Of a stretch of DNA of 64,000 bases, positions 249 through 59,607 are shown piece by piece. Source of the DNA: Beijerinckia sp. 28-YEA-48. GTDB taxonomy: Bacteria; Pseudomonadota; Alphaproteobacteria; Rhizobiales; Beijerinckiaceae. Numbering within the stretch: position 1 is the stretch's first letter; the number at the start of each line of letters is the position of its first letter. The notes under the pieces are model-generated. The model did not search any database, had not been told where the DNA came from, and saw nothing but the letters and a program-made list of their open reading frames with translations. Both the position numbers and the translations under genes were made by a program. Location: NCBI RefSeq assembly GCF_900104955.1, contig NZ_FNSI01000001.1:124001-188000 (forward strand). Direction: 5' to 3'.

Positions 249-1298
249 ATGTATCCGTTCAATTCAGATCGAGCCTATATCCGCAATGCCTGGTATGTGG
301 CGGCCTGGGGGAGTGAGATCACTCGCAAGCCCTTTCAGCGCACCATCATGGAAGAGCCGATCGTCTTCTACCGCACGGAGAGCGGTGAGCCAGTTGCCAT
401 GTTTGGATTGTGCCCGCACCGGACCCATCCGCTGGTCGATGGGCGGCTGATCGGCGACGATATCATGTGCCCCTATCATGGCTTTACCTATAGTCCGCAA
501 GGCGCGTGTGTGCGCATTCCGGCTCAGGACAAAGTTCCCCAGCAGTTTCGGCAGCGGATTTATCCGCTGGTGGAACGCGGCGGCGCTGTTTGGATCTGGA
601 TGGGCGATGCTTCGGCTGTCGACATGACCAAGATGCCGCAAATTTCCGAAATCGGCATGGATGTGCCGGGCTGGAAGACCGTCGAAAACGGCATGACCAG
701 CATCAAGGCGAGATGGTCGCTTGTCATCGATAATGTGATGGACCTGAGCCATGTCGGCTTCATCCATTTAAAGACGATTGAAGCGCCGGCGGCTGGAGAA
801 GTGGCGCCGCAAGACGATGCGGATCAGCGTATTCAGTGCGCGCGTTGGTTGATCAATCAAAGCCCGGATATGAGCTACGCGCGGAACGCTATTCCCGACA
901 ACAGCGAGCCGCTGGACCTGGAATTGGGTTCGGTCTTTTACGGCCCCGGCCTCGTTGCTGCCTATCTGCGTTTCTACACGGCGGCCAGCAAGGGCGAGCG
1001 CAAACTGCTGAGTACAACCTATCATCTGCAATGCGTGACGCCGGAAACGCCGCATATGAGCTATAACTTCAGCGGCGTCGTTCGCAATGTTCGGCTGGAC
1101 GCACCGGACTTCGACCAATGGCTCAAGACCGCCGTGAATAAAACGCGCGAAGAGGATGTCGAAGCGCTGGAAAAAATCGAACCGATGGTCGACCGCTTTG
1201 CCAATGCGCGCAGCGAATTGTCTGGCGTCGGTGATGTCAGCGCCATTCGCGTCAGGCGGCAGCTCGCAGCGCTTCTGGCGCTGGAAGAAGCCGCCTAG
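249..1298 (+). CDS. Rieske non-heme iron oxygenase, alpha subunit (vanillate O-demethylase-like)
   Basis: This 349-residue protein is an aromatic-ring oxygenase or O-demethylase component. The Rieske [2Fe-2S] ligands are visible as C55-x-H57 and C74-x2-H77. The mononuclear iron site is the segment N162-x2-D165-x2-H168-x4-H173 (NVMDLSHVGFIH). Length and spacing fit the VanA / phenoxybenzoate-dioxygenase-type group. ATG 249 follows GGGAGGAAGC. No reductase (VanB-like) gene lies next to it, so the electron donor must be elsewhere. The substrate cannot be told from sequence. The TAG stop is also the left edge of a dispersed repeat copy (1296-1400), so the repeat sits immediately after the coding region. 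Confidence 0.88.
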   Translation: MYPFNSDRAYIRNAWYVAAWGSEITRKPFQRTIMEEPIVFYRTESGEPVAMFGLCPHRTHPLVDGRLIGDDIMCPYHGFTYSPQGACVRIPAQDKVPQQFRQRIYPLVERGGAVWIWMGDASAVDMTKMPQISEIGMDVPGWKTVENGMTSIKARWSLVIDNVMDLSHVGFIHLKTIEAPAAGEVAPQDDADQRIQCARWLINQSPDMSYARNAIPDNSEPLDLELGSVFYGPGLVAAYLRFYTAASKGERKLLSTTYHLQCVTPETPHMSYNFSGVVRNVRLDAPDFDQWLKTAVNKTREEDVEALEKIEPMVDRFANARSELSGVGDVSAIRVRRQLAALLALEEAA

Positions 1299-1400
1299 AG
1301 CAAATCACGTTTCGGTAGAAACGTGATTTTGCTTAGGTCCTCTTATTTGGACACGTCTTCACAGCTCGACGATTCCGTCGAGCTGCGAAACGCTATAGCG
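1296..1400 (+). repeat. Dispersed two-hairpin intergenic repeat, copy A (forward, full)
   Basis: Hairpin 1 spans about 1299-1332, with arms reading ATCACGTTTC and GAAACGTGAT around a GGTA loop. A spacer with TTATTTGGACACGTCTTC follows. Hairpin 2 is CTCGAC-GATTCC-GTCGAG at 1365-1382, and the copy ends in GCGAAACGCTATA. It fills almost the whole gap between the convergent oxygenase and amidohydrolase genes. It shares this layout with copies near 18.2, 19.4, 23.7, 24.9, 26.3, 57.9 and 59.6 kb. Confidence 0.85.
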
Positions 1401-1401
1401 C

Positions 1402-3090: not shown

Positions 3091-3108
3091 GTGGTTTGAC
3101 CTTTGCGA

Positions 3109-3555: not shown

Positions 3556-3697
3556 GGCGTTCTCTCCTCGCTATTGAGCGAAGTAGAGCCCCAGGCGACG
3601 GGTCCGTCAATGGTCAAGGTCGACTCAGGGGCGGGTTGAAAATGTTTGCAGATGCGAACATGATTTCCCTCGACGTGGCGAAGGTGGGGCTTCAGCG

Positions 3698-4552: not shown

Positions 4553-4580
4553 CGACAGGACAGGCGCGCGTCAATCGCGC

Positions 4581-4613
4581 TCTAGGAAAATCGCGTTTCG
4601 ATAGAAACGTTCC
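4581..4613 (+). repeat. Dispersed repeat, copy B (hairpin 1 only, truncated)
   Basis: The bases CTAGGAAAATCGCGTTTCGATAGAAACG match the left edge, left arm, loop and start of the right arm of the dispersed repeat. The second hairpin is absent. On the minus strand this stretch encodes the last residues of MiaA and its TAG stop, so the repeat fragment has become coding. Confidence 0.7.
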
Positions 4614-5505
4614 GCACGAGCCCTTGCGCCGCTTCGACACTCATCCATTCGAACTCAGGCAATTGGTGGCGGAACCAGGTGAACTGGCGTTTGGCATAAT
4701 GGCGCGTGTCGAGCTTGCCTTTGGCGATCGCGTCTTCGCGGGTCATCGTACCATTGAGAGAGGCAATGAGACCCGGCACGCCATGGGCGCGCATGGCGGG
4801 CAAAGCTGGATCCAGCGCGCGGGCCGCCAGCGCTTCGACCTCGTCGAGCGCCCCCGCCGCCATCATCGTATCGAAGCGACGGTCGATGCGGTCGAAGAGT
4901 TCGGTGCGTTCGGGCGCCAGGAAGAGGCAGCGACATTGGGTGGCGTCGAGCAATGGCGCGGCGCGTTTCTCCTGAAAACTCTTCAGAGGCTGGCCGGTCG
5001 CCTCGAACACTTCGAGCGCGCGCAGGATGCGTTGCGGATCGCTCGGGCGCAGGCCCGCCGCTGTCAGCGGATCGAGGGCTTTGAGGCGCTCGTGCAAGAC
5101 GGCCGGCGGCAGACCCTCGGCTTGCGCCCGCACGCGGGCGCGCACCTCGTCGGGCACTTTCGGGATGTCCGAGAGCCCGCGCAGCAGCGCCTTGAAATAC
5201 AGGCCGGTGCCGCCGCACAGGATCGGCAGGCGACCTTCTGCGCGCACTGCCTCAAGGGCTGCAACCGCGTCGGCGATCCAGAAGCCGGTTGAATAATTGG
5301 TGGCGGCATCGACATGGCCGAACAGGCGGTGGGGGAGGGCTGCTTCCTCCTCGACCGTCGGGCGGGCGGTGATGATGCGCAGATCCCGGTAAACCTGCAT
5401 GGAATCGGCGTTAATGACCGTCCCGCCCAGGCGTTGGCCGAGCGAAATCGCCAGGGCGGACTTGCCGCTTGCCGTCGGGCCTGCGATGAGAACAGCCGAA
5501 ACCAA
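4582..5505 (-). CDS. miaA: tRNA dimethylallyltransferase MiaA
   Basis: MiaA transfers the dimethylallyl group to A37 of tRNAs that read UNN codons. The P-loop [10 protein letters not shown] lies near the N-terminus, followed by [31 protein letters not shown] and, near the C-terminus, [12 protein letters not shown], all diagnostic for the family. I take TTG 5505 as the start: GGAG sits 7 bases upstream, and this gives 307 residues, the usual length. A longer reading from ATG 5583 would overlap the divergent serB. The final residues NVSIETRFS and the stop are encoded by a fragment of the dispersed repeat (4581-4613). Confidence 0.95.
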
Positions 5506-5564
5506 ATCTTTGCTCCGTAGCGGCCTAGGCACCTGCGTCCTGCCGCCTCTCTGATGGATGCCCT

Positions 5565-6506
5565 GTGGAACCCTATATCGCAACCCTGATCGCCAAACCC
5601 GGTAGCAAGGCCCTCAGCGCCGACATCGTGCGCAAGGCCGCCCGCATCGTGCCGCATGGCACCGTCGCGGCCTGGCTCGCGCCCGACGAGGCTGTGGATA
5701 TCACCTTCGACCTGGGCGGCACCCGCATCGAGCCGAATTCCGATATCGAGCACGAACTGATCTCGTCCTATGCCGAGGATATCGCGCATGAGGTCAAGGC
5801 GCTGCCGGTTGACGTGGTGTGCCAGCGCAATGGTCATCGGCGCAAGAAATTGTTCCTGGCCGATATGGATTCGACCATGATCGGCCAGGAATGTATCGAC
5901 GAACTCGCGGCGTTCGTTGGCATGAAAGAGCATGTGGCGGCGATCACCGAGCGCGCCATGCGCGGCGAGATCGATTTCGAGCCGGCTTTGCGTGAGCGTG
6001 TCGCCCTGCTCAAGGGGCTTTCCGCCAACGTGGTCGACAAGGTCATCGCCGAGCGCATTACTTTGACGCCCGGCGGGCGCGAATTGGTGATGACCATGCG
6101 CGCCAACGGCGCCTATACGGCGCTGGTCTCCGGTGGCTTCACTTTGTTCACCGGTCGCATCGGCAAGATGATCGGCTTCCATGAAGACAGGTCGAACGAG
6201 CTGATCGTTGAGGATGGCAAACTGGCCGGTCTGGTGCGTGAGCCGATCCTCGGGCGGGAGGCGAAACTGGCCTCGCTGATCGAACTGCGCGACGCACGCG
6301 CGATCGCGCGCGAAGACACTCTGGCGGTGGGCGACGGCGCCAACGATCTGGCCATGCTCGGCGAGGCGGGGTTGGGCGTTGCCTTCCATGCCAAGCCGGC
6401 GGTGGCGGAAGCCGCCCATGCACGCATCGACCATGGCGATCTGACGGCGCTGCTCTTCATGCAGGGCTATCGCCGCGATGAGTTTGTCTCCGGCGCCGTG
6501 CAATAA
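5565..6506 (+). CDS. serB: Phosphoserine phosphatase SerB
   Basis: SerB is a HAD-family phosphatase that makes L-serine from phosphoserine. The N-terminal 90 residues form an ACT-like domain. The HAD motifs follow in order: DMDST at 100-104 (nucleophile D100, acid/base D102), SGGFT at 189-193, and [10 protein letters not shown] from 256. The start is GTG 5565, since nearby ATGs are out of frame. The length of 313 residues fits the alphaproteobacterial form. It is divergent from miaA with about 60 bp between the two starts, and convergent with the degP-type gene across a strong terminator. Confidence 0.95.
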
Positions 6507-6522
6507 AAATGGCAATAAAAAA

Positions 6523-6551: not shown

Positions 6552-6578
6552 TAAATTTAAGTCAGATGCGGTGGAAGC

Positions 6579-8290: not shown

Positions 8291-8328
8291 ACGGGTGTCT
8301 TACTCAATGAGTGGGGTCAAAGACCTGC

Positions 8329-18034: not shown

Positions 18035-18160
18035 GCGGACGGCGATAATTGACGTCATGATCACGTGAAATTGAAGCTTTAACCGGCCGATGTCGCGCAC
18101 TACATTCCGGTGCCGCACACTACATTAGGGTGTCCGCCGTATGCGGCGCCCCGGCGTCTG

Positions 18161-18231
18161 AGGCAAATCGCGTTTCGATAGAACACGATTTGCCGAGGAT
18201 TTCTATTTGACGCGTCTGCGAGACGCTATGG
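18161..18231 (+). repeat. Dispersed repeat, copy C (forward, hairpin 2 lost)
   Basis: Hairpin 1 (GGCAAATCGCGTTTCGATAG and its return arm) is followed by the spacer ending TTGACGCGTCT and the terminal GCGAGACGCTATG, but the second hairpin is missing. The rest of the livF-rhodanese gap holds two close copies of CACTACATT near 18097-18127 and nothing else I can name. Confidence 0.75.
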
Positions 18232-19201: not shown

Positions 19202-19325
19202 GCCTCTCGAAGGCGCGCCTTGTCACCGCTTGCCGCGATGCGCGGTTGGCGGTTTTGGCCCATGGCGTTTTTCGCCGAGGCCTTCCGACCACGCTTGCCC
19301 GCAGCATCGCAAGAGACGTCTCCCT

Positions 19326-19425
19326 GGAGCACATCGCGTTTCGATAGGAGTGCGATTTTGCTTAGGATGCTAATTTTTGACGCGTCTTTGTGGCGTTTGA
19401 CTTCGTCAAACTGCAAAACGCTATA
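19326..19425 (+). repeat. Dispersed repeat, copy D (forward, full)
   Basis: Hairpin 1 runs from GCACATCGCGTTTCGATAGG through TGCGATTTTGC. After the spacer with TTTTTGACGCGTCTTTG comes a second hairpin of different sequence but the same position, GTTTGACTTCGTCAAAC (about 19394-19411), then TGCAAAACGCTATA. The changed arms remain paired. The remaining bases of this 296-bp gap show nothing I can identify. Confidence 0.85.
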
Positions 19426-23628: not shown

Positions 23629-23645
23629 GGTCGCCTCTCGGCTTA

Positions 23646-23740
23646 TCGCCTTTTGCAGTTTGCTTCAGTCAAACGCCCAAAGATGCGTCAAAGCAAATAT
23701 CCGAGGCAAAATTGCGTTTCTGTCGAAACGTAATGTGCTT
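23646..23740 (-). repeat. Dispersed repeat, copy E (reverse, full)
   Basis: In plus-strand order it begins with CGCCTTTTGCAGTTTG, has a worn second hairpin GTTTGCTTCAGTCAAAC, the spacer with GATGCGTCAAAGC, and hairpin 1 AAATTGCGTTTCTGTCGAAACG. It ends exactly at the 3' edge of sspB. Confidence 0.8.
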
Positions 23741-24342
23741 CAGGTCTTCTTGCGGAAAGCGTCGATGGAGACAACCTTGCCTTGCTGGTTGTCCTCGATC
23801 GGCTCCGGCGCAGATTCAGGCTCGACCTTGCGTGCGGCGGGCTTTTCCGCCTTCTCGGTCTTGTCTTTTTTAGCGGCTGTTTTGGCCTTGGCCGGTGCCG
23901 GCTCGGCGGCTTCCGTGGCGTCGGGTACAGCGGCGAGGGGCACGGCGGCAAGCGTCGGTGCGGGCGCGGCTGCCTCGGTGGTGGGGACGCGCGGCTCGAA
24001 TTTCACGCCGAAGGGGCCGGTCGGATCCTCGAAGCCGCTGACGGCGTCGAAGGGCACGATGAGCCGCTCGGGAATATTGTTGAACGACAGGTTCACCTCG
24101 AAACGCGTCTCGTTGACGGTGAGGTCCCAGAACTGGTGCTGCAGGACGATGGTGATCTCTTCGGGATATTTCGCCTTCATCCGCTGCGACAGCTGCACGC
24201 CTGGTGCATTGGTGCGGAAGCTGACGAAGAAATGATGTTCACCCGGCGTGCCTTCGCGCGCCGCGTCGGCGAGCACCTTGCGCACGACGCCCCGCAGCGC
24301 GTCCTGAACCAGAAGATCGTAGCGGATAACGGGGCCTGTCAT
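23740..24342 (-). CDS. sspB: SspB-family ClpXP adaptor
   Basis: SspB brings ssrA-tagged and other substrates to the ClpXP protease. The N-terminal 120 residues (RYDLLVQDALRGVVRKVLAD, HHFFVSFRT, LSQRMKAKYPEEITIVLQHQFWDL, FNNIPERLIVPFDAVSGF) are the SspB fold. The last 70 residues are Ala/Pro/Lys-rich and disordered, ending in a likely ClpX-binding tail. The product is 200 residues. The tmRNA gene that makes the tag lies immediately upstream on the same strand, so tag maker and tag reader are adjacent. Confidence 0.92.
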   Translation of the reverse strand: MTGPVIRYDLLVQDALRGVVRKVLADAAREGTPGEHHFFVSFRTNAPGVQLSQRMKAKYPEEITIVLQHQFWDLTVNETRFEVNLSFNNIPERLIVPFDAVSGFEDPTGPFGVKFEPRVPTTEAAAPAPTLAAVPLAAVPDATEAAEPAPAKAKTAAKKDKTEKAEKPAARKVEPESAPEPIEDNQQGKVVSIDAFRKKT

Positions 24343-24419
24343 TCAAAAACCTTTGCACCGGACGGTCACCGGATGCACCGGCCCATGGAAATGAAAGTGG
24401 AGGCTTCTGTTGCCAGGCG

Positions 24420-24720
24420 CCTCCGAGCCCCGCCTGTAAGTGCTACCCTACAGGGCTTGGTACCAGTATCGGCACCGCATTACGCGGCGACGGCCACCGG
24501 AGCATAGTTGTCATTGGCAACTATAAGTTTGACCCGATAACGGCGGTATCATGCCGGGCAAAAGAGCACCTTTTACACCCCCGTCGAACCTATTTCGCCC
24601 CCGCCGAAAACCACCGCGCGGATGGTTTTGGGTGGAGGCGCCGGGTACCGCCCCCGGGTCCGGATGGCTTATTACGATGTCCGTTTATCACCATAGTCTC
24701 CTTGCGGAGACGGATTGAAT
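24420..24720 (-). ncRNA. ssrA: Circularly permuted two-piece tmRNA (ssrA)
   Basis: Reading the minus strand, the acceptor piece comes first and ends CGGTACCCGGCGCCTCCA (to about 24633). A short hairpin spacer (AAAACCA paired with TGGTTTT, 24630-24607) follows, then the coding piece begins GGGGGCGAAATAGGTTCGAC at 24602. GGGGGCG pairs with CGCCTCC to rebuild the acceptor stem. The tag frame, after TAGTT, is 24518-24480 and reads ANDNYAPVAVAA-stop, ending in the AVAA expected for alphaproteobacterial tags. This order is the permuted form known from alphaproteobacteria. The outer ends are approximate. The base after the stem reads ACCCA rather than ACCA, so the CCA end may be trimmed and rebuilt. 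Confidence 0.92.
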
Positions 24721-24760
24721 ATAGGCGTCCGGCCGCCGAATGGGAAGAGCACGAAAGAAA

Positions 24761-24787: not shown

Positions 24788-24814
24788 GGTTCTGTCCACA
24801 TTTTTGGAGGTTTA

Positions 24815-24915
24815 TGGCGTCTCACAGCTCGGCGAAATCGCCGAGCGCCATGAAGATGCGTCCAAAAAGAGGTTCCAGGCAGATCGCGTTTCTGTCGAGA
24901 CGCGATTTGCTCTAG
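24815..24915 (-). repeat. Dispersed repeat, copy F (reverse, full)
   Basis: On the plus strand: GGCGTCTCACAG, hairpin 2 CTCGGCGAAATCGCCGAG, spacer CGCCATGAAGATGCGTCC, hairpin 1 ATCGCGTTTCTGTCGAGACG, and the edge GCTCTAG. That edge supplies the TAG stop of the TerC-family gene. Confidence 0.85.
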
Positions 24916-25664
24916 CCGGCGGAATGTCGCCGGCGGTAGGAACTGGCGAAGGCGATTATGGCAATCAGGCCCAAAACACCCCCCACGATAAAGGGCACCA
25001 TGGCCGCGACATCGGGACTGACGAAGCGGGTGGCCAGGGGCGTGATTTCGTTCCAGCCGCGCCACACCATTTCGAACGCCACATAGACGATGATGGCGAG
25101 GCCGGCGTAGCCGATCCAGCGATGACGCTGCAGCAGGCTGGCGATCCAGGTCGCAGCGAGACCCATCAGGGCGATCGACAGAGCCAAACCGAACACCAGC
25201 ACCCACGGATGCTCGCGCGCCGCCCCGCCGACGGCCAGCACGTTGTCGAGCGACATGGAGAGGTCGGCGACGATGATTTGCCACACGGCCGCGCGGAAGG
25301 TTTTGCGTGGCGCTCCGCTATCGGTCGCGTGAGCACCTTCGTCTTCCTGGCTATGTCCGGCGCGCAATTCGCGCCACATTTTCCAGCTCACCCACAGCAG
25401 CAGGATGCCGCCTGCCAGCAGGAGGCCGACGATCTGTAGGAGTTGCGTGGTCATCAAAGCGAGAACGATGCGCAGCACCGTCGCGGCGACGATGCCGATG
25501 ACGATCACTTTGCCACGTTGTTCTTTCGGCAGTCCGGCAGCGGCCAGGCCGATGACGACGGCATTATCGCCGGCCAGCACCAGATCGATCATGATGACCT
25601 GGAAAAGCGCCGTAAGGACGCCTGGTGCGAAGAGTTCCTCTAACATCAACTGTACCTGCATCAA
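24912..25664 (-). CDS. TerC/YjbE-family integral membrane protein
   Basis: The 250-residue polytopic membrane protein has the two TerC signature segments, DLVLAGDNAVVIGLAA near the N-terminus and DLSMSLDNVLAVGGAA in the second half. Acidic residues within these membrane helices are thought to handle metal ions (Mn or Ca) in this family. A charged cytosolic loop with QEDEGAHATDSG separates the halves. No other tellurite genes are near. The stop codon lies in the edge of repeat copy F. Confidence 0.88.
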   Translation of the reverse strand: MMQVQLMLEELFAPGVLTALFQVIMIDLVLAGDNAVVIGLAAAGLPKEQRGKVIVIGIVAATVLRIVLALMTTQLLQIVGLLLAGGILLLWVSWKMWRELRAGHSQEDEGAHATDSGAPRKTFRAAVWQIIVADLSMSLDNVLAVGGAAREHPWVLVFGLALSIALMGLAATWIASLLQRHRWIGYAGLAIIVYVAFEMVWRGWNEITPLATRFVSPDVAAMVPFIVGGVLGLIAIIAFASSYRRRHSAG

Positions 25665-26010: not shown

Positions 26011-26238
26011 GGTCGCCTCCCTCGAAGGCAAGCAAAAACTGGCCACACGTTTCAGTTCGCCGCTTTCATGAAAGCGGCGTTCCTGGCGCGTCGACAGTTG
26101 CTTGAGGAGGAGTCTAGGAGGGTGACCCGTGTTTTTGTATTCGCAATGATTGCGCCGTGAGATTACCCGTTACGATAACGGCGATCCTCGTGGGTAATCA
26201 TACGCTGTAAATATACGGGCTCTGCAAATATACGGATC

Positions 26239-26350
26239 ATGGCGTTTTGCAGTTTGACTTAGTCAAACGCCACAAAGACGCGTCAAACAATGATGCGTCA
26301 AACAACGTTCCCTAGGCAAAATTGCGTTTCTGTCGAAACGCAATTTGCTC
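26239..26350 (-). repeat. Dispersed repeat, copy G (reverse, full, slightly expanded)
   Basis: On the plus strand: GGCGTTTTGCA, hairpin 2 GTTTGACTTAGTCAAAC, a spacer in which GATGCGTCAAACAA appears twice in near copy (AGACGCGTCAAACAATGATGCGTCAAACAA), then hairpin 1 AAATTGCGTTTCTGTCGAAA and its return arm. The rest of the 26011-26356 gap contains only a short palindromic patch near 26161-26200 (GATTACCC and GGGTAATC). Confidence 0.85.
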
Positions 26351-26356
26351 TTTGCC

Positions 26357-35267: not shown

Positions 35268-35315
35268 AAGCGTTGCGAGGCCTCGGTGTCATCAAGTCAG
35301 TTGAATATGCCACAG

Positions 35316-35376
35316 CCTTGGTGTCATCCCGGACGACTGCGCAGCAGGCGATCCGGGACCCAGGGGCGTGTGGTAG
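35316..35376 (+). repeat. Inverted-repeat arm left of the GIY-YIG gene
   Basis: About 60 bp beginning CCTTGGTGTCATCCCGGAC and ending CCAGGGGCGTGTGGTAG. It contains an internal palindrome (TCCCGGA and TCCGGGA). An inverted near copy lies at 35720-35779 beyond the gene, and a same-orientation relative at 35818-35875. Confidence 0.8.
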
Positions 35377-35411: not shown

Positions 35412-35705
35412 ATGCAGCATTCTTATTGGGTTTATATTTTGGCGAGCGGTCGCAACGGTACGCTTTACACGGGCGTCAGCAACGATCTAGCCTGGCGCGT
35501 TTATGAGCATAAAACGAAAGCCATCCCTGGCTTCACGGCTCGCCATGATGTTTCGAAGCTCGTTTGCTACGAAGAGCATAGCGAAATCGATGATGCGATC
35601 GCACGCGAGAAGAAGCTCAAACGTTGGCGGCGGGACTGGAAACTGCAACTGATCGAAGCGGTCAATCCGCAGTGGAATGATTTGTATGAGACATTGAATC
35701 CCTAA
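35412..35705 (+). CDS. GIY-YIG domain endonuclease-like protein
   Basis: The 97-residue protein is a single GIY-YIG nuclease domain: SYWVYILAS and LYTGVSNDLAWRVYEHK carry the VYI and YTG motifs with the conserved arginine. The acidic segment AIAREKKLKRWRRDWK holds the metal-binding glutamate. It is of the UPF0213 (YhbQ-like) type. The gene is enclosed by inverted copies of a 60-bp palindromic repeat, which suggests a small mobile or domesticated cassette. Confidence 0.85.
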   Translation: MQHSYWVYILASGRNGTLYTGVSNDLAWRVYEHKTKAIPGFTARHDVSKLVCYEEHSEIDDAIAREKKLKRWRRDWKLQLIEAVNPQWNDLYETLNP

Positions 35706-35779: not shown

Positions 35780-35817
35780 TTTTGGGAAAACGATGGACGT
35801 TGAAGAATAGTCCAGCA

Positions 35818-35875
35818 CCTCGGTGTCATCCCCGACAGCCGCGTAGCGGCTGAGCGGGGATCCAGGGGCCAGCGG
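35818..35875 (+). repeat. Third relative of the GIY-YIG flanking repeat
   Basis: CCTCGGTGTCATCCCCGACA to GATCCAGGGGCC, in the same orientation as the left arm. The internal stem is CAGCCGC-GTAG-CGGCTG inside TCCCC and GGGGA. It borders a broken regulator gene, so the repeat may have landed in or next to that gene. Confidence 0.7.
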
Positions 35876-42020: not shown

Positions 42021-43163
<1,143 letters not shown>

Positions 43164-43209
43164 ACTACGCAACTAAAGTACGCTTCTCTGCCGCCGTCGG
43201 GCCTGTTAC

Positions 43210-43244
43210 AGCAAATCTCGTTTCGACAGAAACATGATTTTGCT
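43210..43244 (+). repeat. Dispersed repeat, copy H (hairpin 1 only)
   Basis: AGCAAATCTCGTTTCGACAG with the return arm AAACATGATTTTGCT forms an imperfect hairpin 1. The spacer and hairpin 2 are absent. It lies between ilvC and the ABC transporter operon. Confidence 0.7.
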
Positions 43245-43297
43245 GCGGGTCCGGCGGCGAGCGGGGAGGGACTGTTGCGGGCAGGGAGCGTGACCAG

Positions 43298-44155
43298 GTG
43301 AGCGCAGATAAAACTGCCGCTGCGGTATCCCTGTCCGGCGTCGCTATCTCCTTCGGGACCGGCGCCAAACTCTATCGCGCCGTGGCCGATGTCGATCTGA
43401 CCGTTCAGCCTGGCGAATTCGTCGCCATCGTCGGGCCCACAGGCTGCGGCAAATCCACTCTTCTCAATGTTGCCGCCGGCCTGCTGGCGCCAAGCGCCGG
43501 CACCGCTGAGGTCAGCGGCCGCAAGGTCGAGGGCATCACCCGCGCGGCGGGCTATCTGTTCCAAGCCGATGCGTTGATGCCGTGGAAGACGGCGCTCGCC
43601 AATGTCGCCGTCGCCCTGGAAGTGGCCGGTGTCGGCCGCGCGGAAGCGCGCGAACGGGCCTTGGCCTGGCTGGCGCGGGTGGGCCTGAGAGGTTTTTCGG
43701 AGCGCTATCCGCACCAGCTTTCGGGCGGCCAGAAGAAGCGCGTCGCGTTGGCGCAGATGCTGATCCGCGATCCGGCTATTTTGTTGATGGACGAGCCGTT
43801 CGGTCCGCTTGACGCGCAGACGCGCGCCCTGATGGGCGATCTCCTGCTGTCGCTTTGGCAGGCCGACCGCAAGGCGGTGCTGTTCGTCACCCATGATCTC
43901 GATGAAGCCATCGCGCTCGCCGACCGGGTGGTGGTGATGTCGGCGGGGCCGGCCTCGCACATCATCGCCGATCATCGCATCGATCTGCCGCGCCCGCGCG
44001 AGATGGTCGACATTCGTCTCGATCCGCGTTTCCACGCCCTGCAAAGCGCCATCTGGCGTGACCTGAAGGCGGAAGTCATGCGCGCCTATGGCGATGAATT
44101 CGCCGCCCTGGGCTTGGGCAATATGGGTTTAGCCAAAACGACAGGTGCGCCATGA
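43298..44155 (+). CDS. NitT/TauT-type ABC transporter ATPase
   Basis: The 285-residue ATPase of the nitrate/sulfonate/taurine group has Walker A GPTGCGKSTL, a Q-loop YLFQADALMPWKTA, signature LSGGQKKRVALAQML and Walker B ILLMDEPFGPLD, followed by the switch VTHDLDEAIALADR. The start is GTG 43298 with AGGGAG upstream. It overlaps the permease gene by 4 bases. Confidence 0.92.
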   Translation: MSADKTAAAVSLSGVAISFGTGAKLYRAVADVDLTVQPGEFVAIVGPTGCGKSTLLNVAAGLLAPSAGTAEVSGRKVEGITRAAGYLFQADALMPWKTALANVAVALEVAGVGRAEARERALAWLARVGLRGFSERYPHQLSGGQKKRVALAQMLIRDPAILLMDEPFGPLDAQTRALMGDLLLSLWQADRKAVLFVTHDLDEAIALADRVVVMSAGPASHIIADHRIDLPRPREMVDIRLDPRFHALQSAIWRDLKAEVMRAYGDEFAALGLGNMGLAKTTGAP

Positions 44156-49101: not shown

Positions 49102-50673
49102 ATGACGATCTCCTCTGTTTCGCAAATGATCCGACAGGAACGAGACGCTCGGATTGATGCCAAGATCGGCTGCGCCCTCATTATCATTCTGTGCGGCGTC
49201 GCCATCTGGTTACGTTTCCTTTTGCCGATGAACACCGACACCAGCTGGCTCATCACCGTGTCGGATCTGGTTCTCGACGGTAAGAAACTCTATGTCGATG
49301 TCAGCGAGACTAACCCGCCAGCTTCGGTCTGGATCTATCTGCCCATCGTGGCGCTGGCCCGTTTGCTGCACGTCGCGCCCGAACCGCTCGTCATCACGTG
49401 GATCTTCGCGCTGACGGCGATGAGCTTGGGGCTGGCTGCTGCCATTCTGGCGCGCGCCGGTTGGCTGCAACGCTATGATCGGCTGCTGCTGCTTGCGCTG
49501 GCGATCGCGATATTCACCATCTTACCCGGCAACGCATTTTCCGAGCGTGAGCATGTCGCTACGCTGTTCTGCCTGCCGTTCCTGGCGGCGGCGGTGGCGC
49601 GTGTCGAAGGTCGAGCGCTCAGCTGGCCATTGCTCATTGCGGCTGGCCTCTGCGGTGGCATCGTGGTGATCATTAAGCCGCATTTCGTTCTTAGCGTTGA
49701 GCTGCCGGTTCTGGTCGCTCTTGCTGCGGATCGGCGCTGGCGCACGCTCCTCAGTCCTGAAAATATGATCGCGGGCCTGCTGACGATTGCTTACGTGGTC
49801 AGTACTTTCGTGTTCTATTCGGACTATTGGACAGTGACCATGCCGGTCAACGCGGCAATCTATCTGCCGGTTGCGCGCATGGGGGACGCCCTACAGTCGG
49901 TTTACTTACCGCTCTTGGGGGGATTGATCCTGAGTGCGTGGTTGTTCTCGGGCAGGCACTTCCTGCGTCATCCGGCAGTGATCGTGTTTGCGGCAGCGAT
50001 CGGCTTTTGCATCGCTTTTGTCATTCAGGGTAAGCTGTGGTCCTATCAGATCTATCCGGCGATCTCGCTTGGATTGATGGGCGCTGCATTGGTCGTGATC
50101 GATCGCGGATTGTCGTGGCCCGGCGGTTGGCTGCGTCTCGTCTTCCATCCGGCCGTGGTGGCCGCCGTGACGGTGGCGATTTGCGCGCCTCTGTTCTTTC
50201 TTCATTTTCACTATGACAGGCTTGTTGAGGCGATCGCGAAACTGCATCCGCATCCCACCCTGGCGATCGTTTCCGGTGACATTGCGCTCGGGCATCCGAC
50301 CACCCGCATGGTGAACGGCCGTTGGGGCATGACCCAATGGGCGTTGTGGACCGAGACCTATGGCCTTCAGCTGCGCTGGAAGTTTGGTAGCGACCCTGCG
50401 TTTCGGAAGAGGCTGAGCACGATTGAGGCTATTGAGAAAGCTGATATGGCGACCTTTCTCACCGATCTACGTCGCAATCGGCCGGATATTCTCCTCACCT
50501 TCCGGATGGAAACAGACCTGCGGGCGCATATTCGTAACTTTCCTGGCATAGCGGAGGAATTGGATCGCTACGAAATCGTCGACACGGTGTCGTTGGTTGA
50601 TCAGCCGGAGGGGGTTGTCGATATTTTGCGCCGCCGGCCAGATGCGCCAATTTCCTCCGATCTGCGATCATAG
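49102..50673 (+). CDS. Polytopic membrane protein, GT-C glycosyltransferase-like, paralog 1
   Basis: The 523-residue product has about ten membrane helices. The first external loop reads MNTDTSWLITVSDLVLDGKK and then LYVDVSETNPPASVW. This order (acidic residue, DGKKLY-D, NPP before a helix) matches the pattern of GT-C enzymes of the GT39/ArnT type, which use polyprenyl-linked sugars. The C-terminal domain carries SGDIALGHPTTRMVNGRW and DLRRNRPDILL, shared with the next two genes. Function is inferred; no named family is certain. Confidence 0.72.
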   Translation: MTISSVSQMIRQERDARIDAKIGCALIIILCGVAIWLRFLLPMNTDTSWLITVSDLVLDGKKLYVDVSETNPPASVWIYLPIVALARLLHVAPEPLVITWIFALTAMSLGLAAAILARAGWLQRYDRLLLLALAIAIFTILPGNAFSEREHVATLFCLPFLAAAVARVEGRALSWPLLIAAGLCGGIVVIIKPHFVLSVELPVLVALAADRRWRTLLSPENMIAGLLTIAYVVSTFVFYSDYWTVTMPVNAAIYLPVARMGDALQSVYLPLLGGLILSAWLFSGRHFLRHPAVIVFAAAIGFCIAFVIQGKLWSYQIYPAISLGLMGAALVVIDRGLSWPGGWLRLVFHPAVVAAVTVAICAPLFFLHFHYDRLVEAIAKLHPHPTLAIVSGDIALGHPTTRMVNGRWGMTQWALWTETYGLQLRWKFGSDPAFRKRLSTIEAIEKADMATFLTDLRRNRPDILLTFRMETDLRAHIRNFPGIAEELDRYEIVDTVSLVDQPEGVVDILRRRPDAPISSDLRS

Positions 50674-50709
50674 AAGCGGCGAAACTCGTGCTGTGCGGTA
50701 TGTGAGGTA

Positions 50710-52314
50710 TTGATGTCAGTTTCGTCGGGTTTTTCGTCCATCTGGCAAGAGCAGAGGAAGCGGACCTCCGTTGATCTGTGGGCCGGCTGTATGTTGATCC
50801 TGATGCTCATTGGTGCCGCGATATGGCTGCGCGCGCTGATGCCGATGAATTCCGATACGAGTTGGCTGATCTCAGCTTCAGAAATGCTGCTCGACGGCAA
50901 GAAGCTCTATGTCGATATCGGAGAAACCAATCCTCCTGCATCGATCTGGCTCTATGCGCCCGTGGTTGCATTTGCCCGTCTGCTCGGTATACGGCCAGAG
51001 CCGGTCGTCAATGGCTATATATTTGCGATGCTGACAATTAGCCTCGCTTTAACGGGCGTCATATTGGCCCGAAGTGGCTGGCTGAAGCGGTTCAATGGCT
51101 TTCTTCTGACGGCGATTTTCCTTGTTCTTTTCGCCATTCTCCCAGGCGCCAGCTTTTCAGAGCGAGAACATGTCGCGGCAATGCTATGTCTGCCGTTTCT
51201 TGCTGCGACACTGATACGGGCCGGTGGGGCGGCACCGAGCTGGCCGTTGTTGATTGCGGCCGGCATATGCGGCGGTATTGTCGTTATTATCAAGCCGCAT
51301 TTTTTGCTCGCTTTAGAGCTGCCTGTTCTCATGGCGCTGTGGGTACAGCCGCGGCTGCGAACACTTTTTAGCCCGGAGAATGTGATCGCGGGCTTTCTTT
51401 GCCTTGCTTACATCGCAAGTACGTTCATTTTCTACCGCGAGTTCTGGACGATGGCGATGCCGGTCAACGCGACGGTCTATCTTCCCAATGCGGATCGTCT
51501 GCAGGCCTTTAGGACAATTACCACGCCTATTCTTGTCGCGCTTTGCCTGACGTCCTGGCTTTTCTGCGGTCGTTCTTTCCCCCGACATCCGGCCGGGATT
51601 GTCTTGGCTGCGTCGGTGGGTTTTTATGTGGCTTTCGTCGTGCAAGGCAAGCTGTGGCCTTACCATGTTTACCCGGCGGTGGCTCTGGGTGTCTTGGGCG
51701 GAGCTCTGGCTGCGTTTGATCGCCGCTTGCTCGAAACCGGTGGTCGTCAGACTGAGGTCAGTCCGTTATTAGCCAGAGTGCCCTTCCTGTGTCGGCTTGC
51801 CAACCCGGGCGTCGTTGCTGTCGGTGCGCTGGTCGGCTTTTCTTCGTTGTTCTTCATTCACGGCAATTATCAGGTACTGGCTGCCATCATCACGAGACTT
51901 CATCCCAATCCCGTTATCGCCAGTCTGTCCGGAGATATTTCTGTCGGCTATCCCGTGACCCGAATGGTGAACGGACGTTGGGGCGCGACGCAGCCATCAT
52001 TGTGGGTCATAGCGAATGGCATTGTGTTGAGACGGCGGTATCCCGATTTATCGCCATCGAAGTTGTCGGCCGTAGAAGCCGTGGAGAATGCCGATCTCGC
52101 GGTGCTTCTCGCAGATCTGCGCCGCAACCGCCCGGATATCCTTTTAGCTCTGAAGCAGGAAACGTCGCTGCTTGAGCGCTTGCGTGCCTTTCCGGGCATG
52201 AAGGAAGAGCTTGATCGTTATGAGTTCGCGGGCAGGGCGGGGTTGGTCGAGGAGGGCGATATCGTCGATATTTTGCGTCGCCGCCCGGATTTACGATCCT
52301 CGATGGATCCTTAG
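50710..52314 (+). CDS. Polytopic membrane protein, GT-C glycosyltransferase-like, paralog 2
   Basis: The 534-residue product is similar in length and layout to the genes on both sides. It has the loop MNSDTSWLISASEMLLDGKK, then LYVDIGETNPPASIW, the middle IKPHFLLALELPVLMAL, and C-terminal SGDISVGYPVTRMVNGRW and DLRRNRPDILL. The protein ends DILRRRPDLRSSMDP. It is part of a tandem triplication. Confidence 0.72.
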   Translation: MMSVSSGFSSIWQEQRKRTSVDLWAGCMLILMLIGAAIWLRALMPMNSDTSWLISASEMLLDGKKLYVDIGETNPPASIWLYAPVVAFARLLGIRPEPVVNGYIFAMLTISLALTGVILARSGWLKRFNGFLLTAIFLVLFAILPGASFSEREHVAAMLCLPFLAATLIRAGGAAPSWPLLIAAGICGGIVVIIKPHFLLALELPVLMALWVQPRLRTLFSPENVIAGFLCLAYIASTFIFYREFWTMAMPVNATVYLPNADRLQAFRTITTPILVALCLTSWLFCGRSFPRHPAGIVLAASVGFYVAFVVQGKLWPYHVYPAVALGVLGGALAAFDRRLLETGGRQTEVSPLLARVPFLCRLANPGVVAVGALVGFSSLFFIHGNYQVLAAIITRLHPNPVIASLSGDISVGYPVTRMVNGRWGATQPSLWVIANGIVLRRRYPDLSPSKLSAVEAVENADLAVLLADLRRNRPDILLALKQETSLLERLRAFPGMKEELDRYEFAGRAGLVEEGDIVDILRRRPDLRSSMDP

Positions 52315-52484
52315 CGCTGCTGACCTTAGGCTGTTGTCGTTGGCGGAGCGTGCCCGTGCGGATGCTGGTCACAGCGTTTTCTACAGCCGTGCCATTTGCC
52401 GGTATGAGATCGCGGACGCAGTCGAATTAGCAGGCCGGTGTCGACATCTTCCGTTTTGTTGGCGCCATTACCTTCCCCTCACCG

Positions 52485-54092
52485 TTGAGCGAGTGGACCA
52501 TGTCGTGGCTTAAACTTACATCGTCGGAGCACTCTCGCTTCGCGGCTGTTCCGGTCTTCCTCATTTTAGTGATGTTGCTGGGCGTTTCCATTCTGATGCG
52601 TTTCTTGCTGCCAATGAATTCCGATACCAGTTGGCTGCTTACCGCATCAGAAATGCTGGTCGACGGAAAGAGACTGTATATCGACATCGGCGAAACTAAT
52701 CCTCCAGCCTCGATCTGGATTCACGTGCCTGTCGTGGCTCTAGCGCGCATACTGGATTTTTCCCCCGACATATTGATGGTCGTTTGCGTATTTGGCTTGC
52801 TGATAGTCAGCGTGGTTATCTCTTACCTGGCATTTTTTCGCACTGACAAGCGTTTCAATCGCTTTGTTCTGCTGTCGATCGTTCTGGCGACATTCGTTAT
52901 TTTGCCGGGCGTATCATTTGCGCAGCGTGATCACATCGCGGCGATTTTATGTCTCCCGTTTTTGAGCGTGACCATGGCGCGGGCGTCGGGGAGAATGCTG
53001 CCTTGGCCATTGCTTGTTTCGGCAGGTATCTGTGGCGGCATTGTCATGATCATTAAGCCGCACTTTGCCCTGGCGTTGGAGATGCCCGTTTTAATTGCGC
53101 TGCTCAATGTGCGGTCTTGGCGAGTTTTGTTCAGCGCAGAAAACCTAATCGCTGGCACATTGATGGTCGCATATGTTGCGGTTGTCGTTGTTTTTTGTCG
53201 CGAGTTCTGGGCCGTTGCGATGCCCATCAATACGCTTCTCTATCTGCCGGCGGCCAATAGGTTGGCTGCCTTGTTGTCGATATATGTTTTGTTTTTCTTC
53301 GGTCTGTTCGCCACGTCGTGGATTTTCTGCGGACGTGAGTTGCGGAGCCATCCGTCAGTCTTTGCCTTCGCTGCGGCGGCTGGTTTTGGAATTGCATTTA
53401 TTCTGCAGGGAAAGCTTTGGTACTATCATGTCTATCCCATGATTGCGTTTGCGCTCGTGGGAGGCATGTTGGCTATGTTTGACAAGAAGCTCCTGGCGAT
53501 TGGTGGGCGCCCGGAAGATGTGAGCCCGACGCTTGCTCGGCAGCGGTGGTTGCGCATTCTTTTGAATCCCGGTGTTTTTGCCGCCGTTGTATTCTCAATC
53601 TGTTTCTCTTGGTTTGTTCGACATCTGGATCATCAACAGGTTGCTGAAGCAATTGTTCGCATCCAGCCTCGTCCAACGTTAGCCGTTCTTTCCGGCGATA
53701 TTTCGGTGGGGCATCCTGTTGCCCGTATGGTGGATGCGCGTTGGAGCATGACGTCGCCCGCGCTATGGGCACTATCGAATGCTCTTTTGCTCCGCGACTT
53801 GTACAGGTCCGATCCCCCGAACGATCAGCCCGATACTCTACTGGCTATCGCGGCAGCGGAGGATGCTGAACTCGCCACTTTTCTTTCAGATCTGCGTCGA
53901 AATAGGCCGGATATTCTGCTGGCTCTCTCAAGCGAGAGGGATTTACAATCCCGTGTACGAGCTTTTCCCGGTATGGCTGCGGAGCTCGCCCATTATGAAT
54001 TAGCCGATACGGCTGCTTTGGTAGGCCGTAGGACGCATCTGATTGATATTTTTCGGCGTCGCCCGAATTTACGATCTTCAACAAATCCTTAA
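52485..54092 (+). CDS. Polytopic membrane protein, GT-C glycosyltransferase-like, paralog 3
   Basis: The 535-residue third paralog has the loop MNSDTSWLLTASEMLVDGKR, then LYIDIGETNPPASIW, and C-terminal SGDISVGHPVARMVDARW and DLRRNRPDILL. The start is TTG 52485 or ATG 52500. The 170-bp gap before it shows no gene. It seems closest to paralog 2 by eye, suggesting two rounds of duplication. Confidence 0.72.
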   Translation: MSEWTMSWLKLTSSEHSRFAAVPVFLILVMLLGVSILMRFLLPMNSDTSWLLTASEMLVDGKRLYIDIGETNPPASIWIHVPVVALARILDFSPDILMVVCVFGLLIVSVVISYLAFFRTDKRFNRFVLLSIVLATFVILPGVSFAQRDHIAAILCLPFLSVTMARASGRMLPWPLLVSAGICGGIVMIIKPHFALALEMPVLIALLNVRSWRVLFSAENLIAGTLMVAYVAVVVVFCREFWAVAMPINTLLYLPAANRLAALLSIYVLFFFGLFATSWIFCGRELRSHPSVFAFAAAAGFGIAFILQGKLWYYHVYPMIAFALVGGMLAMFDKKLLAIGGRPEDVSPTLARQRWLRILLNPGVFAAVVFSICFSWFVRHLDHQQVAEAIVRIQPRPTLAVLSGDISVGHPVARMVDARWSMTSPALWALSNALLLRDLYRSDPPNDQPDTLLAIAAAEDAELATFLSDLRRNRPDILLALSSERDLQSRVRAFPGMAAELAHYELADTAALVGRRTHLIDIFRRRPNLRSSTNP

Positions 54093-54134
54093 CGAGCCGG
54101 ATTTAGACTGCTGCAGCTCATCAGGGTCATTTTC

Positions 54135-56196: not shown

Positions 56197-56261
56197 CCGG
56201 AGCCTCGGAGGCTTGCATCCGGCTGACGCACATGAGCCAATAACGCTCCGGGATCCGAATC

Positions 56262-57173
56262 ATGCGACGCAAGTTCCAAACTCTCGACGTCTTCACCGAG
56301 CAGCGTTTCGGGGGCAATCCGTTGGCGGTTGTCGTCGAGAGCGAGGGGCTGTCGGGCGAAGACATGCAGCGTATCGCGCGCGAGTTCAATCTGTCGGAGA
56401 CGATCTTTCTGCTTGAAGCGCGTGATCCGGTGAATACGGCGCGTGTTCGCATTTTCACGCCGGGGGCTGAACTTCCCTTCGCCGGGCATCCGACGATCGG
56501 AGCGGCGGTGGCAATAGGCCTGATCAAAGCGCCGCGCCTTATTCAGGTGCAGGACATCGGTCTTATGATCGAGGAGGAGATCGGTACAGTCTCCTGCACG
56601 GTGCGTCAGCGCAAGGGGCGGCCGCCTGAGGCGGAATTCATCCTGCCGCATCTGCCGCAGCGCATCGGCGAAACAGGGGCGCGGGCCGATGTGGCGCGGG
56701 CACTGTCGCTTGAGGCCAGCGACATCGGTTTCGATGAACATGAGATGGGCGTGTGGTCCGCCGGCGTGGCGCTGAGCTTCGTACCGGTTGCCTCGCTTGC
56801 CGCGATTGCGCATGCGCGGGTCAATCAGGCGTATTGGGACGCAGCCTTCCCCGGGGAAGGTGAGTTTGGTGTTTTTCTCTATACCAAACAGGTTTCGGAA
56901 GACGGGCATCATGTACATGCGCGCATGTTCGCGCCGAGGCTCGGTATCGCCGAGGATCCAGCGACCGGTTCGGCGGCGGCGGCTTTCGCGGGCGTCTGCA
57001 TGGCCTATGAAAGGCCTGAGGATGGCGAACATGTCATCGTCATCGAACAGGGCTATGAGATGGGGCGACCGAGCCAGATCATCTTGAAGCTGAATGTCAT
57101 GGATGGGATTTTACAGAGCGCAGCTATTGGTGGGGCGGTCGTGCCGGTCATGGAAGGCACGATTGAAACATGA
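56262..57173 (+). CDS. PhzF-family isomerase/epimerase
   Basis: The 303-residue protein has the PhzF motifs FTEQRFGGNPLAVV, catalytic E46 in NLSETIFL, LPFAGHPTIGAAVA and EDPATGSAAAAFAG. Substrate is unknown in most PhzF members. The TGA overlaps the ATG of the following Nudix gene by 4 bases, so the two act in one transcript. Confidence 0.9.
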   Translation: MRRKFQTLDVFTEQRFGGNPLAVVVESEGLSGEDMQRIAREFNLSETIFLLEARDPVNTARVRIFTPGAELPFAGHPTIGAAVAIGLIKAPRLIQVQDIGLMIEEEIGTVSCTVRQRKGRPPEAEFILPHLPQRIGETGARADVARALSLEASDIGFDEHEMGVWSAGVALSFVPVASLAAIAHARVNQAYWDAAFPGEGEFGVFLYTKQVSEDGHHVHARMFAPRLGIAEDPATGSAAAAFAGVCMAYERPEDGEHVIVIEQGYEMGRPSQIILKLNVMDGILQSAAIGGAVVPVMEGTIET

Positions 57174-57907
57174 ATGTGACAATTGAGGCCGTTGACGCCA
57201 TCGAGAGCACTTATGTGCCGCGCGAATGGGCTTTTGCACTCGAGCGAAAAGCGGAGATCGATGCCCACTGGGCCAAGCTGACGACGCAGAAGCCGCTGCT
57301 CTATGATGGGCGTGTGCTGTTAATGGATCACTGGGAGATCGTCGAGCGCAACGGCATGCGTGTATTGCGGACGCGGCATTTTTCGACGGACTATCGCAGT
57401 TTTCTGGCCTGGCGTGATTTCGGCTTTCCGGATCCTGCGGTCAGGAATTGTTTCGCGGCGGCGGCTCTGTTGTCGCGTGATGACGTCTTTTTGTTGGGCG
57501 AAATGGCAAGCCATACCGCCAATGCGGGCAAAGTCTATTTCGCGGCGGGCACGCCCGATATGGGAGACGTGCAGGGCGATGAAGCCGGCGCACGCGTCGA
57601 TCTTGCCGGCAGCGTGTTGCGCGAACTCGCGGAGGAAACCGGGATTACGGCCGAGCAGGTGCAGTGCGAGGCGCGTTGGACCGTGGTGTTCGAAGGGCCA
57701 CGCGTTGGCTGTATGAAGATCGTGCGCTCGCCGCTCGATGCGGCGGCGCTCATGGCGCAGGTTGATCAGTTTCTTCGTTCTGATCCGCAAGCGGAACTGG
57801 TGCGGCTGCATCAGGTGAGCACGAATGGCGATCTACGGCCAGACATCATGCCTGGCTTCATCATCGCCTATCTTGATCGGATGTTGGGGCAAATCGCATT
57901 TCGATAG
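57170..57907 (+). CDS. Nudix hydrolase
   Basis: The 245-residue protein carries a Nudix box around residues 134-160 with the core R151-E-L-A-E-E156-TGI. A family-specific N-terminal domain of about 90 residues precedes it. Substrate is unknown. The last residues (QIAFR) and the TAG stop are encoded by the left arm of a dispersed repeat copy, so the original C-terminus may have been replaced. Confidence 0.85.
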   Translation: MNVTIEAVDAIESTYVPREWAFALERKAEIDAHWAKLTTQKPLLYDGRVLLMDHWEIVERNGMRVLRTRHFSTDYRSFLAWRDFGFPDPAVRNCFAAAALLSRDDVFLLGEMASHTANAGKVYFAAGTPDMGDVQGDEAGARVDLAGSVLRELAEETGITAEQVQCEARWTVVFEGPRVGCMKIVRSPLDAAALMAQVDQFLRSDPQAELVRLHQVSTNGDLRPDIMPGFIIAYLDRMLGQIAFR

Positions 57908-57987
57908 AAACGCGATTTTGCCTGGCGCGTTTGTTTTGACGCGTCTTCATGGCGCTCGGCGATTCCGCCGAGCTGTGAAACGCTATC
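57888..57987 (+). repeat. Dispersed repeat, copy I (forward, full)
   Basis: Hairpin 1 is GGCAAATCGCATTTCGATAG with return arm AAACGCGATTTTGCC. The spacer has TTTTGACGCGTCTTCATGGCG. Hairpin 2 is CTCGGC-GATTCC-GCCGAG and the end is TGTGAAACGCTATCG. The loop of hairpin 1 supplies the TAG stop of the Nudix gene. Confidence 0.87.
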
Positions 57988-58000
57988 GCTCGCGCGTCAT

Positions 58001-58381: not shown

Positions 58382-58520
58382 CGTTGGCCTCGTGTTGGCT
58401 GTAGGACCAAACTAGCGCGTGGATAGCGAGGCGACAACCAGCGGCGCGCCGTTAAAACCGTTTGGGATCGGCGCGGGGGCGGTTAAGCTGCCTACGACAT
58501 AAGGCGAGGGAGGCGCGCCA

Positions 58521-59489
58521 ATGCCGATTAAAATCTTGTATCTATTCGCGGCGATTGTCGTTGCGCTCGGCTGTGGGCCAGTCGCGGCGCAGACCTATCC
58601 GGATCGGCCGGTGAAGATCATCGTGCCATCGTCGCCAGGCGGCGGCTTCGATGTTGTTGGCCGGGTGTTGGCGGAGCGGTTGCAGCGCATTTATGGGCAG
58701 GGCTTCGTCGTTGAAAACCGAACAGGGGCCGGCACGCTGGTTGGCACCGAAGCGGTGATGCAGGCGCCCGCGGATGGTTACACCTTGTTGATCGGCGGCC
58801 TGTCGAACATGGCGCTCAATCCTGGGCTTTACGCCAAGATTGCTTATGATCCGGTGAAGGATTTTACGCCGCTCGGTCTTGTGGTGAGTTGGTCCTACAC
58901 GCTGATCGCCCGCAAGGACGCGCCTTACACGGATTTGCGCGCCATGATCGACTACGCGCGCGCCAATCCGGAAAAGGTCACGGTCGGCTATGGCAAGGGA
59001 TCGGGCCAGCATATCGCCATCGCGGCGCTGGAGAACGCCACGGGGGTAAAGTTTCTCTATGTGCCTTATCGGGGTGCGCAGCCGGTCTATCAGGATTTGT
59101 TGAGTGGCCGGATCGATCTGTATTTCGACAATTCGCAAACGGCGATGCCGCACGTGGAGGGCAAAGCGGTGATCCCGCTCGCCGTGTCGTCACGGATGCG
59201 GCAAGTGTTCCACCCCGATGTGCCGACGGTCGCTGAAACCGGCTTGACGCCCATGGATATGGAAACCTGGTTCGGTCTTTACGCGCCAGCGGCGACGCCG
59301 AAGTCTATTGTCGAAACCCTGCGTGCCTCGGTCTCGAAGATCGCCGTTGATCCAGAGGTCATGGCTTTGTTTCGGAAGATCGGCGGGCGGCCGCTCGATA
59401 TGACGCCGCAGGAGACGGAGACATTCGTCCGCATTGAGCTTGAGCGCTGGACGAAGCTGCTCAAAACCATTGGCGTGACGGCGGATTGA
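58521..59489 (+). CDS. Bug/TctC-type periplasmic solute receptor, tandem copy 1
   Basis: The 322-residue product has a signal peptide ending VAAQ, then TYPDRPVKIIVPSSPGGGFDVVGRV and FVVENRTGAGTLVGTEAV. GAGGGAGGCGCGCCA precedes ATG 58521. The shared GAGTLVGTEA element groups it with the next gene. No TctAB is present. Confidence 0.9.
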   Translation: MPIKILYLFAAIVVALGCGPVAAQTYPDRPVKIIVPSSPGGGFDVVGRVLAERLQRIYGQGFVVENRTGAGTLVGTEAVMQAPADGYTLLIGGLSNMALNPGLYAKIAYDPVKDFTPLGLVVSWSYTLIARKDAPYTDLRAMIDYARANPEKVTVGYGKGSGQHIAIAALENATGVKFLYVPYRGAQPVYQDLLSGRIDLYFDNSQTAMPHVEGKAVIPLAVSSRMRQVFHPDVPTVAETGLTPMDMETWFGLYAPAATPKSIVETLRASVSKIAVDPEVMALFRKIGGRPLDMTPQETETFVRIELERWTKLLKTIGVTAD

Positions 59490-59501
59490 AGGGGAGCGTC
59501 C

Positions 59502-59607
59502 CTATAGCGTTTCACAGCTCGACGGAATCGTCGAGCGCCATGAAGACGCGTCCAAATAAGAGGATCTAAGCAAAATCACCTTTCTACCGAAACGTGATTT
59601 GCTCTAG
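59502..59607 (-). repeat. Dispersed repeat, copy J (reverse, full)
   Basis: On the plus strand: TATAGCGTTTCACAG, hairpin 2 CTCGACGGAATCGTCGAG, spacer CGCCATGAAGACGCGTCCAA, hairpin 1 ATCACCTTTCTACCGAAACG with TGATTTGCTCTAG. It lies between two TctC genes of the same orientation. Confidence 0.87.

Follow-up and report, generated by a model that had tools for sequence, protein, structure and literature searches.

Mobile elements usually stay harmless by choosing intergenic sites or the ends of tRNA genes. Among the repeats of the order Rhizobiales, RIME1 (the Rhizobium-specific intergenic mosaic element) is said to have been described by Osteras in 1995 as an intergenic repeat of ~100 bp that contains two large palindromes, and we know of no stop-codon insertion for it. 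The family described here is like RIME1 in its size, its two palindromes and its occurrence in Rhizobiales, a likeness at the level of description. RIME1 has been named alongside Sm-repeats and the A, B and C motifs (part of PMC2573895). Bru-RS1 and Bru-RS2 of Brucella, palindromic repeats of 103 and 106 bp (part of PMC10800456), are similar by description in length, in palindromic form and in belonging to the same order.

REPs have been sorted into GTAG and CGTC superfamilies (part of PMC3733652). Like REP, BIME and REPIN elements, the present family consists of dispersed, high-copy palindromes with an inverted pair that carries TAG-containing tags. It differs from such systems accompanied by a RAYT in that its own genome has no PF01797 match, and E. 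coli GTAG REPs do not occupy the stop-codon register described below (0/29). Br-REP1 and Br-REP2 of Bradyrhizobium are Rhizobiales hairpin repeats located in 3'-UTRs; their quoted consensus sequences differ from ours, and the quoted portion of that source makes no mention of stop-codon insertion (PMC5082802). MITEs of the IS427/IS711-like type are likewise short, with TA-containing ends and a YTAR target (part of PMC3163539), whereas our family shows no correlated target duplication and its genome has no match to an IS5-type transposase. A search of the open-licence literature, by title or abstract start, returned no description of repeats that insert at stop codons.

Anatomy, copy number and distribution

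The repeat is ~105 nt (~105 bp) long and comprises two long hairpins with short terminal tags. Folding combined with pairing by hand gave the arms of hairpin 1 as CCTA-g-AGCAAATCRCGTTTC and GAAACGYGATTtTGCT-TAGG; in hairpin 2, an outer stem formed by GCGTcTTCAT and GTGAAACGC encloses an inner stem of either CTCGACG or GTTTGAC. The first-pass annotation had laid out the element as hairpin 1, spacer, hairpin 2 and terminal sequence. The two hairpins were borne out, but the sequences assigned to spacer and tail, GCGTCTTCAT and ATGAAACGC, both belong to the outer stem of hairpin 2. The motifs it quoted are indeed present above chance in the window (the whole 64-kb stretch of DNA analysed): GACGCGTCTTCATGGCG has five matches with ≤3 mismatches against 0.54 expected, and GAAACGCTATA has four with ≤1 mismatch against 0.33 expected. 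The element begins CC-TAG-AGC, so that its bases 3-5 form a TAG that defines the register used below. Its 5' tag is CTAG, while CGTC is present in the outer stem of hairpin 2 and not as an unpaired end tag. The terminal inverted repeats are imperfect in this genome (CTAGAGC..GCTATR), whereas those of other genera are good (TAGAGC..GCTCTA).

All ten copies reported earlier for the window were recovered by direct-repeat search, eight of them full or nearly full and two consisting of hairpin 1 only. Folds were more stable than those of shuffled sequences in 8/8 full copies (z from -2.7 to -8.1), and the two half copies gave z of -1.8 and -3.3. With Rfam 15, no match in the window exceeded the gathering score except those to tmRNA models; a single chance-level match lay near 57854. 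The tmRNA gene itself, of the permuted alphaproteobacterial type, occupies 24396-24750 on the minus strand, directly downstream of a terC-like gene and the element copy at 24813.

A covariance model built from four window copies was searched against the window's own genome (G000) and returned at least 150 scored matches, every listed one on contig C1 (5,935,066 bases). None of the 150 matches listed fell on the second contig (~0.49 Mb; about 492,560 bases), where ~11 would be expected (P ~6e-6 if evenly spread). Eight of the 150 were left out of further analysis (hairpin 1 only, weak, or near a better copy) and one separately found copy was added, giving 143 copies analysed with their flanks. 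A dispersed, structured repeat family with copies on the chromosome is thus confirmed, and the 143 copies analysed genome-wide are not a few chance palindromes. The proposal that copies lie always in or at gene ends was too strong, as 17 of the 143 are situated between divergent genes.

Among 60 relatives only one genome, G023 (apparently Rhizobiales bacterium 62-17), was rich in copies, with at least 64 matches; five others had one to seven weak matches. In an order-wide sample in which the best 13 matches per genome were considered, 18 of 297 genomes (own genome included) and 9 of 123 genera had a match at E ≤1e-4. With one copy as the blastn query, plasmids and phages gave no match.

Window copies and their orthologous sites

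The regions around the window copies could be aligned to G023, for the most part with 74-93% identity, and the breaks in the alignment coincide with the elements. The full copy at 1294..1397 (+) provides TAG at 1296-1298 as the stop codon of a Rieske/VanA-type oxygenase gene (249-1298), and a second TAG lies past its 3' end at 1396-1398; the site in G023 is empty and the gene stops at the identical codon. Similarly, the terC-like gene (24912-25664) stops at the TAG (24912-24914) of the full copy at 24813..24916 (-), beyond whose 3' end lies TAA (24812-24814), and the empty site in G023 has a TAA stop at the identical codon. A full but worn copy at 23644..23744 (-) still has TGA at its 5' end, and this TGA (23740-23742) is the stop codon of an sspB-like gene (23740-24342); here too G023 is empty and stops at the identical codon.

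Sites of two other full copies are also empty in G023. The one at 57883..57987 (+) is entered by a frame (57170-57907) that ends at a TAG in the loop of hairpin 1 (57905-57907), and the one at 59503..59608 (-) lies between genes, off stop codons. A full copy with an internal duplication at 26238..26354 (-) starts 2 nt past the stop of a response-regulator gene (26357-26971), and G023 has a hairpin-1 remnant at the corresponding site. The copy at 19323..19425 (+), full and of the GTTTGAC/GTCAAAC subtype, is located between two same-strand genes, and the G023 site is not alignable. At 18157..18230 (+), hairpin 1 is followed by a shortened hairpin 2 that has lost its inner part; G023 is without an element here, in an alignment that is less clean. 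The hairpin-1 remnants lie at 4585..4609 (+), at the end of a miaA-like gene (4582-5583, -), and at 43205..43248 (+), flanked by one gene of KARI-like type (42144-43163) and one of ABC-transporter type (43298-44155).

Beyond the window copies, the sites at C1 coordinates 87326, 108242 and 204414 are empty in G023, as are 4213419, 4360890, 5898339 and 5166062. Copies at 97765 and 211155 are common to both genomes, 85225 (like 26238) has left a remnant in G023, and 44055 and 190320, like 19323, could not be judged there. These comparisons show that the element is mobile: orthologous sites are occupied in one genome and vacant in the other, and insertions are exact and have a fixed polarity.

Short internal duplications inside or beside hairpin 2 were seen in two copies, window 26238-26354 and G000:C1:44055-44184 (GACGCATCATTGTTTGACGCGTC; repeated GGCGCTCGTTC). 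Elsewhere in the window, at 49195-54092, three similar genes of ~530 codons follow one another in a row (repeat families D1, D7 and D8).

The stop-codon register

The main finding, which the first-pass annotation missed, is the register that the element keeps with stop codons. With genes called by a purpose-made simple codon-usage gene finder, 104 of the 143 copies followed a same-strand gene, and in 50 of the 143 the stop codon of that upstream gene coincided with element bases 3-5, leaving 93 outside the register. Only five genes ended elsewhere inside a copy, and the mirror register at the 3' end was occupied in four copies, compared with the 50 at the 5' end. TAG was the stop in 40 of the 50 stop-coincident copies versus 92 of 392 other genes. 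Among G023's own copies, 10 of 37 were in stop register (three antisense overlaps were left out of 40 matches).

Twenty-two of the 50 stop-coincident copies were looked up in G023: seven in a syntenic block, one more, and 14 by flank query, 13 of which were found. The flank-query sites were hand-picked, nearly all having a 5' TAG and together spanning different 3' triplets, and TAG retention was compared only given TAG. At 16 of 16 readable empty sites the G023 orthologue stopped at the same codon, as did 117 of 129 control genes (a further seven had unaligned ends). The empty sites end in TGA (9), TAA (4) or TAG (3), and the filled genes in TAG (15) or TGA (1). Because the orthologues stop at the same codon in every case, mostly with TGA or TAA where the filled genes have TAG, we conclude that the stop codon is where the element joins and that the stop then comes from the element. 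Given TAG in G000, G023 also had TAG at 3 of 15 element sites versus 15 of 26 control genes (P 0.025), and the claim that the element brings a TAG stop is well supported.

The remaining sites examined were shared or held a remnant (85225, 97765, 3064137) or were unreadable (1517170, 3006006, 5200197). Close to the corresponding gene end at the G023 site orthologous to G000:C1:5200197 there seems to be another insertion that resembles hairpin 1, which may have arisen independently. The triplet past the 3' end of the element was identical to the G023 stop in 6 of 16 sites, where shuffling predicted 3.7 (P 0.13); survival of the old stop behind the element is likely at some sites, namely 764169, 5687494, 5166062 and window 24813, and as a general rule is only suggested.

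These results are probably best explained by a non-autonomous mobile repeat that joins at stop codons, offers its own TAG as the in-frame stop and is moved by a trans-acting enzyme that reads the hairpins. About one in three of the copies analysed is inserted at a gene's stop codon, where TAG-AGC at the 5' end of the element serves as the in-frame stop and leaves the protein end unchanged. In the favoured version, the element would join directly before the stop without target duplication, and the old stop would come to lie just past the 3' end (..GCTA-TRR). The enzyme, which may since have been lost, would recognise the terminal hairpins and join the element before a short Y-TRR-like target, and stop codons would be at least the cost-free class of such targets, as the TAG tag replaces the stop. 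By landing on a stop codon with a replacement in hand, an element could, by simple means, multiply unnoticed in a compact genome. Counted against this explanation are the negative searches for PF01797, PF13340, PF01609 and PF01548 transposases in the own genome, the 3' triplet agreeing in only 6 of 16 sites, the 93 of 143 copies off register, the stops at either end in other genera and the TGA of copy 23644.

How specifically stops are targeted depends on the null applied. An oriented TRR or Y-TRR target predicts 7-9% of copies at stops (P 2e-17). With an unoriented YTAR target 24% are expected and 54 of 143 (38%) were seen at either end (P 2e-4), and same-strand sites ≤60 nt from a stop are exceeded 2.6-fold (P 4e-4). 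The chief reservation concerns general Y-TRR or YTAR targeting followed by purifying selection, which would explain much of the pattern while sharing the same element anatomy; stop insertions would then be over-represented harmless survivors of a target not specific to stops. We give this account a little under an even chance. It accords with the small excess over the YTAR null, with the excess of only 2.6-fold over nearby same-strand sites, and with the TRR, TGG included, that non-stop copies also have past their 3' end. Yet the excess is significant under all three nulls, and the share of stop-coincident copies, by score group from the best-scoring down, is 18/35, 9/35, 13/35 and 10/38. The best-scoring copies are presumably the youngest, and selective survival would raise the share with age; the higher share among them thus leans to targeting. 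Because the excess shrinks under the YTAR null and the 3'-triplet test is nonsignificant, we weight both specific stop targeting and the explanation of a stop-joining, TAG-supplying repeat slightly lower.

Candidate enzymes, paired changes and other genera

The register, the TAG tag and the polarity of insertion would together provide a sharp signature with which to seek the mobilising enzyme. The first-pass annotation had suggested a REP-associated tyrosine transposase (PF01797); none was found in G000 or G023, control genomes did match, and 5 of 41 genus genomes have the domain. A REPIN-like element moved on single strands by a tyrosine (Y1/HUH) transposase would have the two terminal hairpins with inverted TAG tags, the polar insertion and the lack of visible duplication seen here, and some REPs start with GTAG or TGTAGAGC (part of PMC2817692). 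We nevertheless regard such an origin as unlikely, given the PF01797 searches, the even division of copies between leading and lagging orientations (69:74, without the bias that would be a sign of single-strand transposition) and the behaviour of GTAG REPs in E. coli. Of 29 GTAG REPs in six 50-kb segments of E. coli MG1655, several of them tandem copies, none supplied the TAG stop to a reading frame open over 80 codons, whereas the identical measure gave 57 of 143 in the window's own genome; E. coli REPs were accordingly rejected as a general case of the register.

Correlating the flanks of copies produced no convincing target duplication: TA predominates at the 5' end, TG is roughly as frequent as TA past the 3' end, and the two ends are uncorrelated. 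This bears on a further alternative, a MITE of an IS427/IS711-like transposon (IS5 family) with ends GAGC..GCTC, which would duplicate TA at YTAR and, on insertion into TAA or TAG, regenerate TAG at either end. Elements of other genera, with the termini TAGAGC...GCTCTA and a stop at one end or the other (8 and 10 of 38 loci), fit this scheme, and the Brucella element IS711 targets YTAR and duplicates TA, in one case having landed in a 103-bp Bru-RS1 (part of PMC3163539). The flanks in the own genome speak against it, as do the TGA stops at 9 of 16 empty G023 sites, although the ancestor of G000 could have differed there. The IS5-type domains PF13340 and PF01609 gave no match in G000, and G023 has one PF13340 match. 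On balance a MITE of this type has a low probability. IS110 (PF01548) also had no match in G000.

A small GIY-YIG gene near 35.4 kb was considered as a mobiliser and rejected, since the four small-gene loci examined lacked CTAGAGC and three carry another repeat. In the window, this nuclease gene (35412-35705) is flanked by a different palindromic repeat (GTGTCATCCCGGACG...) at 35303-35367 and 35805-35869, and repeats of the GTGTCATCCCGGACG type occur on both sides in three of the four small GIY-YIG loci inspected in the own genome and G023.

The paired arm changes noted earlier in hairpins 1 and 2 hold genome-wide, and significance tests gave an excess over shuffles on both alignments used. 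When 100 copies were aligned by fitting to the model, 33 of 36 pairs changed on both sides (353 cells versus 124 in shuffles); in a structure-blind alignment of 71 copies, 19 of 36 did so (224 cells versus 84). Further pair types in the latter were less clear, at 51 versus 47 in shuffles, with 12 of 500 shuffles reaching 51. Much of the covariation consists of a few subfamily-wide switches. Cells changed on one side only, in the blind alignment, comprised 117 G-U and 87 A-C over all pairs, 42 G-U and 67 A-C once the outer helix and a single fixed U-G pair were set aside, and 42 of each when one pair that is A-C throughout a subfamily was also left out. Strand-specific RNA selection should clearly favour G-U, so the rough equality of the two does not indicate it; the balance is what pairing at the DNA level or neutral decay would produce. 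The paired changes had been taken to mean that the folded form is selected or needed for spreading. The covariation stands, and a selected folded RNA is not what the subfamily switches and the G-U/A-C balance indicate. In our reading, pairing is required in the DNA or for the element to spread, and copies decay thereafter; correction of one palindrome arm by the other may also have produced paired changes. For a repeat joining at stop codons, the paired changes would mean that both hairpins are needed for mobilisation, rather than that each copy has an RNA function.

The same balance weighs on the idea that RNA hairpins regulate the upstream gene, through translation at the stop or protection of the mRNA 3' end, and that copies are for this reason kept beside stops. 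The 104 of 143 copies that follow a same-strand gene are in keeping with it, and E. coli REPs ≤15 nt from a stop have been reported to lower translation (part of PMC12306157). Set against the G-U/A-C ratio and a stop share that falls with age instead of rising, we judge it quite improbable, the least probable of the alternatives weighed. A stop-joining mobile repeat would explain, without invoking any function of the RNA, why hairpin repeats in Rhizobiales lie so close to stop codons.

Weak model matches in other genera are built alike, with TAGAGC followed by hairpin 1, a spacer that includes TTTGTTTTGACGCG-like sequence, hairpin 2 and GCTCTA. A stop codon occupies the terminal register at 18 of 38 loci, eight at the 5' end and ten at the 3' end, and the 5' polarity is therefore not general. 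A broader reading, which we advance only tentatively and think has the smaller chance of being right, is that of a Rhizobiales-wide two-hairpin superfamily whose integration machinery would single out stop codons, displace the host stop and install its own TAG, leaving the protein untouched.
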